Source of the DNA: an uncultured Pelagibacteraceae bacterium
GTDB lineage: Bacteria > Pseudomonadota > Alphaproteobacteria > Pelagibacterales > Pelagibacteraceae
Reading direction: 5' to 3'
Assembly (NCBI GenBank): GCA_902591415.1
Contig: CACJAU010000005.1
Location: forward strand, 1 to 36,395
DNA length: 36,395 bases
The position numbers and the translations under genes are program-made. The notes beneath the pieces were generated by a model. The model was not told where the DNA came from, ran no database searches, and worked only from the letters and a program-made list of their open reading frames with translations. Shown piece by piece: positions 2,329-26,142 of the stretch. Within the stretch, counting starts at the first letter, position 1. Every line of letters begins with the position of its first letter.

Positions 2329-3582
2329 TTAGGCTACTGATGTTGATGAATTATTGCCGTATGTGACAATGGGATCTGATGTTCCTTTAACCGCAGCATT
2401 ATCTACTGTTACTTTTATCACATTTTCCATATCTGGTAACTCAAACATTGTTTTAAGTAATATGTTCTCAAGGATTGATCTTAATCCTCTTGCTCCTGTT
2501 TTTTTTGAAATAGCTTTTTTTGCTATTTCTAATATTGCATCATCCTTAAATTCTAATTCTACTTCCTCGAATTCAAACAATCTTTGATATTGTTTAATAA
2601 GAGAGTTTTTAGGTTCCTTTAAAATTTTTACTAAAGATTTTTCATCTAAATCATCTAAAGTTGCAATAATAGGCATTCTTCCAATGAATTCTGGGATTAG
2701 TCCATATTTAATAAGATCTTCTGGCTCAAGCATTTTCATTGTTTCAGATAATGGTTGCTCTTTATAATCTTTTACCTTAGCTCCAAAACCAATTGAGCTT
2801 CCTTTTCCTCTGCTATCTATTAATTTGTCTAAACCTGCAAACGCACCACCACATATAAATAAAATATTTGTTGTGTCGACTTGTAAAAACTCTTGCTGAG
2901 GATGTTTTCTTCCTCCTTGAGGAGGAACACTTGCTACCGTACCCTCCATTATTTTTAATAATGCCTGCTGTACACCTTCACCAGAAACATCTCTTGTAAT
3001 AGAAGGGTTTTCAGATTTTCTGCTTATCTTGTCTACTTCATCAATATAAACTATTCCTCTCTGCGCTTTCTCAACATTGTAATCAGCTGCTTGTAATAAT
3101 TTGAGAATGATATTTTCAACATCTTCACCCACATAACCTGCTTCTGTTAAAGTAGTAGCGTCTGCCATTGTAAAAGGTACATCTAAAATTCTAGCTAAGG
3201 TTTGAGCTAGTAATGTTTTACCGCATCCTGTCGGTCCAACTAGAAGAATATTAGATTTTGATAATTCAATATCTTTGTTATTTTTAGTTTCATGATTCAA
3301 TCTTTTATAATGATTATGAACTGCAACAGATAAAATTTCTTTAGCAAATTTTTGACCTATCACGTACTCGTCTAATACATTGCAAATTTCTTTTGGAGAG
3401 GGAACTCCATCTTGATGTTTTACTAAAGAGCTTTTATTCTCCTCTTTGATAATATCCATACAAAGCTCAACACATTCATCGCAAATAAAAACTGTGGGAC
3501 CTGCAATAAGTTTTCTCACTTCGTGCTGGCTTTTTCCGCAAAACGAACAATATAGGATGTTTTTATTATTTTTTTCTGACAT
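2329..3582 (-). CDS. clpX: ClpX, ATP-dependent unfoldase subunit of ClpXP
   Basis: AAA+ unfoldase that recognises tagged or regulatory substrates, unfolds them and threads them into ClpP. At 417 aa it is close to the family length (E. coli 424). The N-terminal zinc-binding domain has Cys12, Cys15, Cys34 and Cys37. Walker A is GPTGCGKT (116-123), the pore loop is GYVGED (149-154), Walker B is VYIDEVD (178-184), and the IGF tripeptide that docks onto ClpP is present at 264-266. All elements needed for a working ClpXP pair are intact. The gene lies 79 bp downstream of clpP and 50 bp upstream of lon on the same strand. The spacer 3583-3661 shows no recognisable gene or strong terminator; it could hold a secondary promoter, but I cannot define one convincingly. 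Confidence 0.98.
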
Positions 3583-3661: not shown

Positions 3662-4288
3662 TTATTTTCTTTTCTCCACAACAGAGTCTATTAAACCAAA
3701 TTTTTTTGCCTCATCAGCTGTCATAAAATTATCCCTTTCTAAAGCATCTGATATTTCATCAACTGATTTTCCTGTGTGTTTTGAATAAATTTTATTTAAT
3801 CTTTCTTTTAAAGATAAAATTTCTTTGGCATGAATTTGAATATCGGTTGCTTGACCTTGAAATCCTGCTGAAGGTTGATGAACCATAATTCTAGAATTTG
3901 GCAAAGAGTATCTTTTTCCTTTTTCCCCTGCAGCCAAAAGAAAAGATCCCATGGATGAGGCCTGACCAATACAGAGGGTTGAGACTGGAGAATTAATATA
4001 TTGCATTGTATCATAAATTCCTAAACCAGCTGTTACTAGCCCCCCTGGACTATTAATATAAAAATTTATTTCTTTTTTTGGATTTTCTGATTCTAAGAAA
4101 AGCAGTTGTGCAGTAACTAGAGATGCTACAGCATCATTAACTGGTCCTACTAAAAAAACTATTCTCTCTTTTAATAACCTGGAAAAAATATCATATGCTC
4201 TTTCCCCTTTGCTTGTTTGCTCAACAACCATGGGAATAAGACTATTCATTTTCTCTTCAAATTCACGACTCATAATTGGTTTATACAA
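3662..4288 (-). CDS. clpP: ClpP, proteolytic subunit of Clp protease
   Basis: Serine peptidase forming the tetradecameric chamber that works with ClpX, and with ClpA if present. It is 208 aa, against 207 in E. coli. The catalytic triad is visible as Ser112 (GQASSMGS), His137 ([10 protein letters not shown]) and Asp186 (LERDNF), each one residue beyond the E. coli position. The oxyanion-side GG of NSPGG and the IGQ strand are conserved. The start [13 protein letters not shown] gives a short leader like other ClpP propeptides; Met6 is an alternative start. Trigger factor ends 7 bp upstream, which suggests one transcript linking nascent-chain folding with degradation. Confidence 0.98.
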
Positions 4289-4295
4289 CTATTGG

Positions 4296-5666
4296 TTACT
4301 TTTTACTAATTTTTTTTAATTTGGACTTATTTTTTGCAGGAAGTGTGGTTTTAGATTTCTCAGTACCTATATTTGGTTTGTTAAATTCAGCTATAATTTT
4401 TTCTGCATCTTTTGAACTAATCTCTTTAGAAGTTAGATTTATTTTTGATTTAATTAATTCAATAATTTTTTCCTCATATAAAGATCCTTTTAAACTTTGA
4501 GAGGCACTAGGGTTTTTTTGATAATAATCTAGAACCATTTTTTCCTGGCCAGGCATACCTTTAATTTGTTTTTGTATTTCATTTCTAACTTCATCATCTG
4601 ATACTTTTAGATTATTTTTTTCTCCATATTCATTTAGCAATAATCCAAGTTTAATTCTAGATTTTGCTAATTTTTCATTGTTAAATTTATGTTTTTCTTT
4701 AACTTCTGGTTTAAGATTTTGAGTAATAATTGAAATTTCTTGATCGATTAAGTTTTGAGGTAAGTCTACATGATGGTTTTTTTCAATTTGATCTAATATT
4801 TCTTTTTTAGTAACAGCGTTCAATGCTTGAGAATATTGACCTGAGATTTGTTTTTCAATTAAAGATTTTAAATCTTTAATGTCTTTTGCCCCCATTAATT
4901 TTGCAAAATCATCATCAATTTTACTAGCTTTGGGTTTTTTAACATTTAAAATTTTACATTCAAATTTAGTTTTTTTGTTAGCAAGTTCTTTCTTGGGATG
5001 ATTTGCTGGAAGTGTAGCGTTTAATATTTTTTTATCATTTTTTTTCACACCAATTAATTGTTCATCAAAACCTTTTAAAAAAAGATCTTTTCCTAACTCA
5101 AGCTGCACACCTTTTCCTTCACTTCCTTCAAATTTATTACCATCAGCTGTAGCTGAGTAATCAAATATAACTTGATCTCCATTTATTGCTTTTTCATTTT
5201 CATTTTTATCTTCAAATTGCTTATTTTGATTTACTATTTCTTTTAATTTTTCATCAATTATTTTATCTTCAATTTTTACTTTAAAACTTGTAGCTTTAAA
5301 TTTTTCGAAACTTTTTAAAGTTACGCTCGGCAAACAATCTATCTGGAGTTCATAATTCAAATCTTTTCCTTCCCCAAACTGTTTTAAATCAATTTTTGGT
5401 TGACCTGCTACTTTTAATTTTTTTTCATCTATAGCTTTTGTAGTAGTTTCTCTTAAAATCTTGTCTACAACCTCTCCATAAATGGATTTTCCAAATTGAC
5501 TTTTAATTACTTCTGGAGGAACTTTTCCTGGCCTAAAACCTTTTAAAGCTACTTCTTTTTGAAGTTCTTTTAGTCTCTCGTCCATTTTTGTCTGAATGTT
5601 TTTTTTATCAACAATTACAGACAAAATTGTTCTTAGTCCTTTTTTTGATTTAACTTCTACTTTCAT
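4296..5666 (-). CDS. tig: Trigger factor, ribosome-associated chaperone
   Basis: Ribosome-bound chaperone and peptidyl-prolyl isomerase that shields nascent chains. At 456 aa it is slightly longer than the E. coli protein (432). The ribosome-docking signature GFRPGKVP is at residues 43-50. A central FKBP-like domain follows (for example the GDQVIFDYSA strand), then the long helical C-terminal arms. The last 25 or so residues are a Lys-rich tail unlikely to belong to the core fold. The start codon is only 7 nt after the 3' end of the tRNA-Leu gene and there is no Shine-Dalgarno sequence in that gap, so the initiation region borders the tRNA. It is the first protein gene of the tig-clpP-clpX-lon block. 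Confidence 0.97.
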   Translation of the reverse strand: MKVEVKSKKGLRTILSVIVDKKNIQTKMDERLKELQKEVALKGFRPGKVPPEVIKSQFGKSIYGEVVDKILRETTTKAIDEKKLKVAGQPKIDLKQFGEGKDLNYELQIDCLPSVTLKSFEKFKATSFKVKIEDKIIDEKLKEIVNQNKQFEDKNENEKAINGDQVIFDYSATADGNKFEGSEGKGVQLELGKDLFLKGFDEQLIGVKKNDKKILNATLPANHPKKELANKKTKFECKILNVKKPKASKIDDDFAKLMGAKDIKDLKSLIEKQISGQYSQALNAVTKKEILDQIEKNHHVDLPQNLIDQEISIITQNLKPEVKEKHKFNNEKLAKSRIKLGLLLNEYGEKNNLKVSDDEVRNEIQKQIKGMPGQEKMVLDYYQKNPSASQSLKGSLYEEKIIELIKSKINLTSKEISSKDAEKIIAEFNKPNIGTEKSKTTLPAKNKSKLKKISKK

Positions 5667-5673
5667 AATATTT

Positions 5674-5758
5674 TGGTGGGCAAGAAGAGACTCGAACTCT
5701 TAAGCCTTGCGGCACTGGTTTCTAAGACCAGCGCGTATACCAATTCCGCCACTTGCCC
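5674..5758 (-). tRNA. tRNA-Leu (anticodon UAG), CCA encoded
   Basis: Read on the minus strand, the acceptor arm GGGCAAG pairs with CTTGCCC, followed by discriminator A and an encoded CCA (5676-5674). The D-arm has the class II signature GCGGAATTGG...GCG. The anticodon stem CTGGT/ACCAG encloses loop CTTAGAA, with anticodon TAG at 5724-5722. A long variable arm (GCC..GGC) and the T-arm with TTCGA complete a class II tRNA of 85 nt. It decodes CUA and, by wobble, other CUN leucine codons. It lies 29 bp downstream of the glycosyltransferase gene and 7 bp upstream of tig. Confidence 0.97.
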
Positions 5759-5787
5759 CTAACTCAATCGTTGTTTTATATATCAAA

Positions 5788-6849
5788 TTAATTTTTTGTA
5801 AAACGATAAAGTCTAGAATAAATTATTAAGTAAATTAGTAACAAGATAAAGAACCAATACCTGCTTAATTGAGGGTCATACAATAAATACAACCCAGGCA
5901 TTATTAAAATTAAGTAAAAAAGATTAATTATAATTGAATTTAAATAATTGCCTTTACTCTTCCCAAAGCGGCTAGAAATTTTATAAAAACTTAACATATG
6001 TAAGTGTTTATCATCTGGATATATTGGAGATTTTTTTTGTAAAAGTTTTCTTAAAAATGAGAAAAAAACCTCAAAAAAAAGGTAAAATAAAAGTGTGCAA
6101 AAAAAGAATGAAGAAATCTTAGGATTTAAGTTATTAGTAATTATTGTGTTTAAACCGACTAGAGCTCCCATTGTGTACGCTCCACTGTCACCCAAAAAAA
6201 TTTTTGCACTTGGAAAATTAAATAATAAAAATGTCAACAAGATTATAATTTGAGAGATTATTAAAATTGAAAATTCTAAATATCCATTATTAATATTAAT
6301 GTAAACTAATATAATATTTATTAAAATTAAATTAATTGTAAGTAAACCATTAAAGCCATCTATTAAATTAGCACCATTAATAACAAATAGAAAACAAAGA
6401 AGTACAAATATTGAAGAAAATATGTGACTTGACATTAGAGATGTTAAAAATGGAATATCTATATTGAGGATCTTTATGGGTAGTATGTATATGGAGGCAA
6501 AAAGAAGGAGTATCATAATTACTAGTCTTCTCAATGGTTTAATGTTAATTCTCAAATCATCTAAAAAACCAATTGTAAACACTGAGCAACTTATAAAAAT
6601 ATAATTATATAAAACATCTTCATACAATAAGTAATAAATATAGAAAAAAATACCCAGAGAAACGATTGCAGCTATTCCCCCGCTTCGGGTAACAGGTGTG
6701 TCGTGGAAAGCTTGAGGTTTTGAAAAATCCTTATCAAGTAAAGCACCACTTTTTATTTTGTGTGAGTATTTGCTTATAAGCAAAAAAATAAAAAAACTTA
6801 TCAAAGCGAATATTGACAAAAAACTTGCTTCAATCGATTCTGTGCCCAT
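5788..6849 (-). CDS. WecA/MraY-family polyprenyl-phosphate sugar-1-phosphate transferase
   Basis: Integral membrane enzyme that would transfer a sugar-1-phosphate from a UDP-sugar to undecaprenyl phosphate, the first step in building a lipid-linked surface glycan. The 353-aa protein has about ten hydrophobic segments and the family motifs in order: the N-terminal FHDTPVTRSGG signature, a DD pair in FLDDLRIN, the NLIDGFNGL loop, FLGDSGAY, and a cytosolic DDKHLHML loop equivalent to the WecA HLHH region. The HIHH-type loop and the N-terminal signature favour the WecA/TagO group over MraY, and no mur genes are nearby. It starts 8 bp after the EamA-family gene, so the two are probably co-transcribed. 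The exact sugar cannot be read from the sequence. Confidence 0.85.
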   Translation of the reverse strand: MGTESIEASFLSIFALISFFIFLLISKYSHKIKSGALLDKDFSKPQAFHDTPVTRSGGIAAIVSLGIFFYIYYLLYEDVLYNYIFISCSVFTIGFLDDLRINIKPLRRLVIMILLLFASIYILPIKILNIDIPFLTSLMSSHIFSSIFVLLCFLFVINGANLIDGFNGLLTINLILINIILVYININNGYLEFSILIISQIIILLTFLLFNFPSAKIFLGDSGAYTMGALVGLNTIITNNLNPKISSFFFCTLLFYLFFEVFFSFLRKLLQKKSPIYPDDKHLHMLSFYKISSRFGKSKGNYLNSIIINLFYLILIMPGLYLLYDPQLSRYWFFILLLIYLIIYSRLYRFTKN

Positions 6850-6857
6850 TTATTTGT

Positions 6858-7736
6858 TTATCCTTTATTATTTTTTTTAAATATATAAATTCCAATAAGT
6901 ATTACAACTAATGATGCTATCACTTTCCAAGTAATTACTTCATCCATTAGAAAATAACCAAAAATAATTCCAAAAATAGGTATCAAATATGCTACCTGAG
7001 TTTGAAAAACTAAACCATTTACTGTTAATATTCTAAATCTGATTAACCAAGCTAAGCCCGTTGCAATTACACCTAAATATAACAGTGAAAGTGTTGAAGC
7101 AAAAGTTGGAGAAGATTCCCACGGTGTTTCAATTAGTAAGGAAAAAGGCAAAAGAAAAATTACTGACCATAAAGTAGTTGACGTTGTAACATTTTCATTT
7201 TTTTTATTTTTTAATTTTAATGTTAATAAACCTCCAATACAGTAAAACGTTGATCCTAAGATGGTTATAAGAGCGTAAATATAATTTTCACTATTTATGA
7301 TCACTTTATCAAAAAATAAAAATATAATTCCACTAAAACCAATTAAAACACCTAATGATTTAAGATAGGATAATTTTTCATCTTTAGTAAAAAAATGTGC
7401 AAGTATTGAGCCACTTAAAGGTGTTGTGCTCATTAATATAGCCGCAAGATAACTATTTATTTTGGCTGTGCCAATAGCAATTAGAACAAATGGTATCGCA
7501 ATATTGCAAAGACCAATCAAAGCATACCAATTCCAATTTTTACTAAAGGCTTCGATCTTAATACCGCTTATTTTACAAAGAATTAATAATGGTATGCTCG
7601 CAAAAATTACTCTTACTAAAGCAAGTGTAATTGGATCGTAAGAGTATGTAGCTATCTTTATATTGAAGAAAGAAGATCCCCAAATTACAGCTAGTAAAAT
7701 TAATAAAGAAAAATCTAAGGTATTTGCTTCTCTCAT
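6858..7736 (-). CDS. EamA-family (DMT superfamily) inner-membrane transporter
   Basis: A 292-aa protein made of two repeated EamA domains, each with about five transmembrane helices, giving the ten-helix drug/metabolite transporter fold. The first repeat begins at LLILLAVIWGSSFFNIKIA, a typical EamA opening, and the second at about residue 155 (ITILGSTFYCIGGLL). The protein ends in a short Lys/Asn-rich tail. Family members export or import amino acids, nucleotide precursors and other small metabolites; the substrate cannot be inferred here. It is the first gene of a two-gene unit with the WecA-like gene, and is divergent from glnA across a 117-bp shared promoter region. Confidence 0.88.
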   Translation of the reverse strand: MREANTLDFSLLILLAVIWGSSFFNIKIATYSYDPITLALVRVIFASIPLLILCKISGIKIEAFSKNWNWYALIGLCNIAIPFVLIAIGTAKINSYLAAILMSTTPLSGSILAHFFTKDEKLSYLKSLGVLIGFSGIIFLFFDKVIINSENYIYALITILGSTFYCIGGLLTLKLKNKKNENVTTSTTLWSVIFLLPFSLLIETPWESSPTFASTLSLLYLGVIATGLAWLIRFRILTVNGLVFQTQVAYLIPIFGIIFGYFLMDEVITWKVIASLVVILIGIYIFKKNNKG

Positions 7737-24327: not shown

Positions 24328-26142
24328 ATGGAAAAAAACTTATATATCGATGCATCGCATCCTAATGAAACTCGTATTGTTCTTAAATCAGATAATTCAA
24401 TTGAAGAATATGAATTTGAAGATAAAAATAATTTAAATTTTAAAAATAATATTTATCTTGCTACGATAAGCAGAGTTGAGCCTTCTTTGCAGGCAGCTTT
24501 TGTTAATTTTGGAAGAGAAAGACACGGTTTTTTAGCTTTTAATGATATTCAGTCTGATTACTATCAGTTACCATCAGATGATAAAGAAAAAATTAGAATA
24601 GCAGAAGAAAAGATTAGGGAGGATTTAAAAGATAAAACAATCGAGTCTAATCAAGATAATCTACAATCTGAAAATGATTTAAATAATAAAGAAGAAAAAA
24701 ATGAAAATAATGAAATTCAAACTGATAAAGAAAATAACAAAAAAGAATATCGTGAAAAAGTAAAATCTTCATTTGGTATTAAAAGATACAAAATTCAAGA
24801 GGTTATAAAACCGGGTCAGGTTATCTTAATTCAGGTAATTAAAGAGGAAAGAGGACAGAAAGGAGCTGCCCTTACAACTTTTATATCTTTAGCTGGGAAA
24901 TATATGGTTTTAATGCCAAATACTCCTAAAGGTGGAGGAATTTCTAGAAAAATTTTTAATTCTTCAGATCGACAAAAAATTAGAAATATTCTTAACGAAA
25001 TCGAAATTCCCAATAGTATGGGTGTTATCGTAAGAACTGCAGGAGCAAATAAAACAAAAAATGAGATAGAAAAAGATTTTCAAAATACTTTGAAAACCTG
25101 GGAAGAGATTAAAGATAAAGCGTTAGACTCTAACGCTCCATCACTTGTTTATGAAGAAGGTGATATTATAAAAAGGACTTTAAGAGATACTTATGACAAT
25201 GATACTAAAAATGTTTATGTAGAAGGCAATGAAGCTTATCAAAAAGCAAAAAAATTTATGAAAGAGTTAATGCCGAAAAATGTTAAAAATATTAAAAAAT
25301 ATAGAGGTAAGATACCCCTTTTTCATGATGCTAAAATAGAAAAAGAACTAAATAATATTTACGAACCAACAGTAAAATTGAAATCAGGTGGTTATTTGGT
25401 AATTAATCCAACGGAAGCATTAGTTTCTATCGATATAAATTCTGGTCAATCCACAAAACAAATTAATATTGAAAAAACAGCTTTAAATACAAATTTAGAG
25501 GCTGCAGAAGAAATAGCGCATCAAATTAAATTAAGAGATCTATCTGGTCTGATAGTAATAGATTTTATTGATATGATGAATTTTTACAATAGAAGAATTG
25601 TCGAAAAGAAAATGAGAGAAAGTATCAGAAAAGATAGAGCTAGAATACAGATTGGAAGGATTAGTAATTTTGGGCTTTTAGAAATGACAAGACAAAGATT
25701 GCGTGAAGGTTCAATAAAATGGGAAACACAATTATCCCTTTCTTCTTATTCACAAAAAATTCTAAAAAAAATTCAACATTTAGTTTTTACTGATAAAGTT
25801 AAAATAATTAATGCGTATATTCCTGAAAAAGCTAAAATTTATATTGAAAAAAACTTATTGGATGAATTAAAATATTTTCAAAAAAAATATTCTTTCGAAG
25901 TTAAAATTTTTTCAAATAATAAATTTATCATACCAGAATATAAAATTGATCTATTGAATAAATCAAAGAAGATTATCAATTCATTCGAAAATATTGACTC
26001 AATAATAGAAATTAAGAAAATTAAAAAGAAAACGGTGAGAGAAAAAAATAAATTATTAACCAAAAATAGAGAAAAAATTAAAAAAACAAAACAAAAAAAA
26101 AAGATTAGAACTCTTTGGGTTAGACGAAAAAAGAAAAATTAA
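24328..26142 (+). CDS. rne: Ribonuclease E/G family endoribonuclease, cysteine-free
   Basis: Single-strand endoribonuclease for mRNA decay and rRNA/tRNA processing. The 604-aa protein has the N-terminal RNase H-like/S1 region, a strongly acidic low-complexity insert within S1 at about residues 82-145, the sensor and DNase I-like catalytic domain with Asp369 (VSIDINSG) and Asp412 (LIVIDFIDM), spaced 43 residues as in E. coli Asp303/Asp346, and a C-terminal Lys/Arg-rich tail. The zinc-link CPxC segment normally after EMSRQRL is missing: the sequence runs [20 protein letters not shown], and there is no cysteine in the whole protein. There is no long degradosome scaffold as in E. coli (1061 aa). 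RNase G is an alternative name; alphaproteobacterial context favours rne. Confidence 0.92.

Follow-up and report, generated by a model that had tools for sequence, protein, structure and literature searches.

The window, by which we mean the whole stretch of 36,395 nucleotides analysed from an uncultured Pelagibacteraceae bacterium, carries on its minus strand a tRNA-Leu gene with the anticodon TAG (5674–5758, predicted by ARAGORN) and, immediately downstream, an ORF (4296–5666) that opens with ATG and encodes trigger factor (tig; 456 aa; TIGR00115, E 3e-104). Read along the minus strand, the junction is GCCCACCA-AAATATT-ATG, with the encoded CCA of the tRNA at 5676–5674, a spacer of 7 nt at 5673–5667 and the tig start codon at 5666–5664. 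The Pfam profile Trigger_N matches the ORF from residue 1, so the start codon is correct and a wrongly assigned start is ruled out. The spacer contains no Shine-Dalgarno (SD) 4-mer, and tig does not, therefore, belong among SD-led genes. A preliminary description of this DNA had placed the tig ATG 7 nt past the encoded CCA with no SD between them, and this geometry is confirmed by ARAGORN, by the sequence itself and by the extent of the Trigger_N match. In the predicted fold, the spacer and the ATG lie single-stranded beside the folded tRNA. Of the 27 tRNAs identified in the window's genome, which is 80% complete, this gene alone encodes tRNA-Leu(UAG). Its neighbours on both sides are co-directional: a glycosyl transferase family 4 gene (PF00953; 5788–6849, minus strand) lies upstream of the tRNA, while tig is directly followed by an ORF that we take, from its sequence, to be clpP-like (3662–4288, minus strand) and then by another that is presumably, on the same grounds, clpX-like (2329–3582, minus strand).

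The arrangement is not peculiar to the window. A first set comprised 65 loci, assigned where named to Pelagibacteraceae or Pelagibacterales, which marks the window's organism as a SAR11 bacterium, and taken mostly from single-cell or metagenome assemblies; after four without a tig start (L023, L029, L030 and L065) had been dropped, all 61 remaining loci had tRNA-Leu(UAG) upstream of tig on the same strand, at a distance of 5–10 nt in 58, 34 nt in one and 164 nt in two, the last two being probably one prophage-bearing genome met twice, since both lie on contigs 325,155 bases long. A sample of the SAR11 order, covering 84 of 108 matching genomes (the 24 left out include genomes already in the first set), gave the same neighbours in 84/84, with a median gap of 10 nt, a gap of at most 16 nt in 74, and an encoded CCA in every tRNA-Leu(UAG) gene. 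When the 145 SAR11 loci are pooled, among which some other genomes may also occur twice, the gap is 4–16 nt in 132, 18–34 nt in ten, 115 nt in one and 164 nt in two; the short spacing, which the preliminary description had suggested comparing among relatives, is clearly kept. The single gap of 115 nt (G095) holds repeated CGTCTACCAATTCC-like pieces, and the DNA upstream of it has no evident integrase among ORFs of at least 120 aa, their translations being judged by eye.

Outside the order, all 136 other Alphaproteobacteria genomes with a match were examined. The tRNA-Leu(UAG) gene lies within 450 nt upstream of tig in 121 of these, with a median gap of 69 nt that is subject, in a few distant genomes, to an uncertainty of some codons in the tig start; the gap is 16 nt or less in only 5, and in the other 15 genomes there is no tRNA-Leu(UAG) in the 6 to 1500 nt upstream that were covered. 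Adjacency on this scale, in both SAR11 samples and across the class, rules out a chance neighbour. Since class relatives keep the same neighbours at longer gaps, the neighbourhood is old and its tightness mainly a feature of SAR11. These conservation counts, like the promoter and spacer statistics below, are uncorrected for kinship among the loci.

Predicted promoter, probable shared transcript and phage integration

Alignment of the regions upstream of the tRNA makes a promoter-like element visible. Its best pair in the window, matching at 10 of 12 positions, consists of a predicted −10 TATAAA (5775–5780, minus strand) and a predicted −35 TTTACA (5797–5802, minus strand) 16 nt from it; the latter lies within the final codons of the glycosyl transferase gene upstream. 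In 102/145 SAR11 loci the 70 nt before the tRNA contain a pair of at least 10 of 12, compared with 14 in shuffles and 16/141 in the next 70 nt upstream. A TATATAA-like −10 stands at the appropriate distance in 123/145, compared with 25 and 17/141 respectively; at a threshold of 9 of 12 for the pair the contrast is weaker (130 loci against 72 in shuffles). Related loci were left unthinned in these counts, the 145 comprising 114 distinct stretches. On the minus strand, a stricter consensus scan gave no promoter-like site from 5612 to 6256, and so none between tRNA and tig. It missed the proposed promoter because the −10 of the latter lacks a T at position 6, and over positions 4000–7500 it found 17 promoter-like sites where shuffles gave 19.4, which is no excess.

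No terminator-like site was found between 4000 and 7500 of the window, and polymerase that transcribes the tRNA should therefore enter tig. At the level of sequence, this is the layout of a tRNA-mRNA co-transcript, with a promoter-like element ahead of the tRNA and no terminator found ahead of the ORF, and we consider it very likely that tRNA-Leu(UAG) and tig are co-transcribed. The shared transcript that the preliminary description had supposed is thus strongly supported, if by indirect means: by the promoter-like element, by the failure to find a terminator, by a spacer of 7 nt that is too short to hold a promoter, and by the position of tig behind the only tRNA-Leu(UAG) gene found.

In one SAR11 genome (G034, L343:439-19476) the host tRNA-Leu(UAG) gene beside tig is occupied by a phage-like element that encodes an integrase, a terminase large subunit and an internal virion protein. 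The element has its own tRNA-Leu(UAG), distinct from that of the host, which ends 164 nt upstream of tig; the 3' half of the host tRNA lies in between, and the 19.9 kb read did not reveal where the element ends on its other side. Pelagiphage integration at tRNA-Leu(TAG) beside trigger factor, by phages that bring their own tRNA-Leu, has been published (PMC6811365), and the locus is the same; as far as the available part of that paper extends, it treats the locus as an integration site and makes no mention of a shared transcript. In G034 the integration should part tig from its usual promoter. A search of a phage collection with the junction matched 187 records, and among the 40 matches listed most are annotated tRNA-Leu genes of unrelated phages.

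Start codons behind other SAR11 tRNA genes

Three SAR11 genomes (the window's own and two complete ones) and one control were surveyed for an ATG that opens an ORF of at least 75 aa soon after an encoded CCA. In the window's genome 10/27 tRNA genes have such an ATG 2–9 nt after the CCA; in the complete genomes one lies within 10 nt at 6/30 (33 tRNAs found) and 8/30 (32 found). The single control, a non-streamlined alphaproteobacterium of 3.7 Mb, has none (0/30; 41 found). An encoded CCA is present in each of the 87 tRNAs examined in the SAR11 genomes and of the 30 in the control. The three SAR11 genomes thus share with mitochondrial genomes the abutment of tRNA 3' ends on ORFs at many places.

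The ten ORFs of the window's genome are functionally diverse. Six score over curated cut-offs (tig, hisS behind tRNA-His, NAD kinase, NDUS4, pterin dehydratase and DUF4422); three are strong by E-value while falling under NCBIfam cut-offs (typA-like, acyl-CoA ligase and 2-hydroxyacid dehydrogenase, the first two both cut by the locus end); and the tenth (PMT_2) is a weak match. The typA-like gene follows its tRNA after a spacer of only 2 nt. The junction between tRNA-Leu(CAA) and the acyl-CoA ligase has a gap of 4–8 nt in 29/30 loci (the best 30 of 58 genomes). In G000 and G061 tRNA-His lies 4–5 nt upstream of an ORF, which in G000 encodes histidyl-tRNA synthetase, placing a tRNA in tandem with its own charging enzyme; in G062 a tRNA-Gln gene is followed after 3 nt by a CCA tRNA nucleotidyltransferase-like gene that scores under the curated cut-off.

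That the absence of an SD might be special to tig was rejected, since few SAR11 starts of any kind have SD 4-mers: these precede 19%, 11% and 16% of the starts in three sets, while the corresponding control stretches give 4%, 8% and 19%. Within the tRNA-tig gap an SD 4-mer occurs in 5/84 SAR11 loci of the order sample and in 34/121 class loci. The preliminary description had further suggested that, on a shared transcript, the junction would tie tRNA maturation to the translation of a ribosome-bound chaperone. As a tie special to a chaperone this is unsupported in the form stated, because spacers of 1–10 nt precede many unrelated SAR11 genes and because SD motifs are so sparse in this group; the broader layout of start codons against tRNA 3' ends is a more interesting result than the case of tig.

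Spacer sequence, candidate processing enzymes and initiation

The 74 order-sample spacers of at most 16 nt are 93% A+T. Immediately before the tig ATG, T occupies position −1 in 73/75 distinct spacers of this length, compared with 38% of 190 baseline starts (the first ATGs of ORFs, uncurated); W-T-T precedes the ATG in 54/75 against 35/190, and the full motif RNWTT in only 39/75 against 23/190. RNase E cleaves at RN|WUU in Salmonella and prefers AU-rich single strands (PMC5222698), and in Rhodobacter its sites are likewise reported to be AU-rich (PMC6238624). The spacer of the window, AT|ATT before the ATG, agrees with RN|WUU in sequence, and we put forward as a hypothesis that W-T-T could form part of an RNase E motif. 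At the tRNA-Leu(CAA) junction T is found at −1 in 26/29 loci and W-T-T in only 12/29, and no T or W-T-T rule was apparent by eye in the other tRNA-ORF junctions inspected. Since T at −1 is kept where W-T-T is mostly absent, and no such rule is apparent elsewhere, this T may serve initiation; it could, for example, pair with the nucleotide adjoining the initiator anticodon.

The window itself encodes a candidate processing enzyme, an RNase E/G match over the TIGR00757 cut-off (24367–25713, plus strand), and RNase E scores over cut-off in 10/10 SAR11 genomes. RNase J does so in 9/10 and was not found in the incomplete G000, and RNase PH in only 2/10. RNase Z (TIGR02651) is over cut-off in 0/10, with weak matches to the family below cut-off in 9/10, so that a divergent tRNase is possible. 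Since RNase Z and, in 8/10 genomes, RNase PH do not reach curated cut-offs, SAR11 may mature the 3' ends of its tRNAs in an unusual way. A parallel is reported from P. acnes, which has no obvious RNase Z and in which tRNAs with encoded CCA are cut by an endonuclease a few nt beyond the CCA (PMC3848588).

A proposed tRNA punctuation of SAR11 transcripts

These observations suggest the following scheme, in which co-transcription, the cutting enzyme and the length of the translated leader are all inferred. The tRNA-Leu(UAG) gene and tig would form one transcription unit, which probably extends to the clpP- and clpX-like genes and would be read from the promoter upstream of the tRNA. RNase P would cut the 5' end of the tRNA, and an endonuclease, most likely RNase E acting in the AU-rich spacer (5667–5673), would part the tRNA from the mRNA; spacers of 2 nt, as before the typA-like gene, speak against RNase E here in that they give it little room. 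The genomic gap allows a tig leader of 0–7 nt, which would be translated without SD pairing, and the nearly leaderless mRNA that the preliminary description had envisaged after tRNA 3' processing is plausible on this layout. On balance we favour the scheme as a whole, that is, co-transcription, excision by RNase P and an endonuclease, and a short SD-independent tig leader. It would make tig one case of a layout present in all three SAR11 genomes surveyed, and a bacterial analogue of mitochondrial tRNA punctuation.

Genome compaction may account for the junction without any regulatory meaning. The short gap would then be a by-product of streamlining on a transcript that is shared all the same, and any nearby cut would suffice; this reading, which is compatible with the proposed excision, we rate at even chances. 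The same spacing recurs at many unrelated SAR11 genes, class relatives keep the same neighbours with longer gaps, and 8/107 tRNA-tig gaps of at least 25 nt contain terminator-like sites (2.9 in shuffles), so some lineages may uncouple tRNA and tig. However, T at −1 and, less strictly, A-T-T beside the ATG persist in spacers that otherwise vary, and an adjacency retained across most of the class suggests more than drift.

A start site for tig within the tRNA gene, which would give a leader that includes the 3' part of the tRNA, is improbable. The preliminary description had named such a promoter as contrary to its own reading. Gene-internal promoters are common in bacteria, and a −10-like TANNNT lies within 30/145 SAR11 tRNA-Leu(UAG) genes, but the window's tRNA has none and the scan gives no promoter-like site there. 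Slightly less probable still is translation of tig from uncut tRNA-tig RNA, in which the tRNA would serve as a structured 5' cap or a regulator. Although the predicted fold would expose spacer and ATG, the acceptor stem would begin about 12 nt before the AUG of tig and about 7 nt before that of the typA-like gene, which would leave little room for a 30S subunit, and the cell needs mature tRNA from the sole UAG leucine gene found.

Excision of tRNAs and translation without SD each have precedents. In mitochondria, tRNAs directly border ORFs and their excision defines mRNA ends. The SAR11 layout is alike in that tRNAs border ORFs and that excision would set mRNA ends with very short leaders; it differs in involving only a minority of tRNA genes and in lacking RNase Z above cut-off. 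Bacteria also have mixed tRNA-mRNA operons of the E. coli thrU-tyrU-glyT-thrT-tufB type, in which, as here, a tRNA gene lies upstream of a translation-related gene, and SAR11 has a comparable pair of tRNA-Gly and an EF-Tu-like ORF. The latter keeps a long spacer in all three SAR11 genomes (38–40 nt), which contains GAGGA in one, whereas tig and the others have 1–16 nt, mostly without SD. Alphaproteobacteria are documented to have leaderless and non-SD mRNAs (PMC4117421, PMC3616915), which share with tig initiation without SD; their leaderless ends are, in the available parts of these reports, mapped as transcription starts, whereas the tig end would come from tRNA processing. Literature titles and the openings of abstracts, with few subscription journals covered, contained no description of tRNA-tig co-transcription or of SAR11 tRNA punctuation, which is weak evidence of absence, and neither is mentioned in the accessible part of a paper on Pelagibacter RNAs (PMC2704228).

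A wider generalisation is offered more tentatively, as one that we think rather less likely than the scheme for tig: that SAR11 routinely makes mRNAs by tRNA punctuation, a single endonuclease cut in an AU-rich spacer both maturing the tRNA and defining where an SD-independent mRNA with a short leader begins. The conserved (A/U)UU before the tig AUG would then be cut site and initiation context at once, the supply of chaperone mRNA would be tied to a tRNA promoter, and lysogenic pelagiphages would rewire the arrangement by placing a tRNA-Leu of their own between tig and its promoter.

Few groups of cells in the sea are as abundant as SAR11 bacteria. Should tRNA excision define where the mRNA begins behind between a fifth and a third of their tRNA genes, the synthesis of stable RNA and of protein would be physically coupled in them. 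The junctions would then furnish a natural test set for SD-independent initiation, and organelle-like punctuation would be open to study in a free-living alphaproteobacterium.
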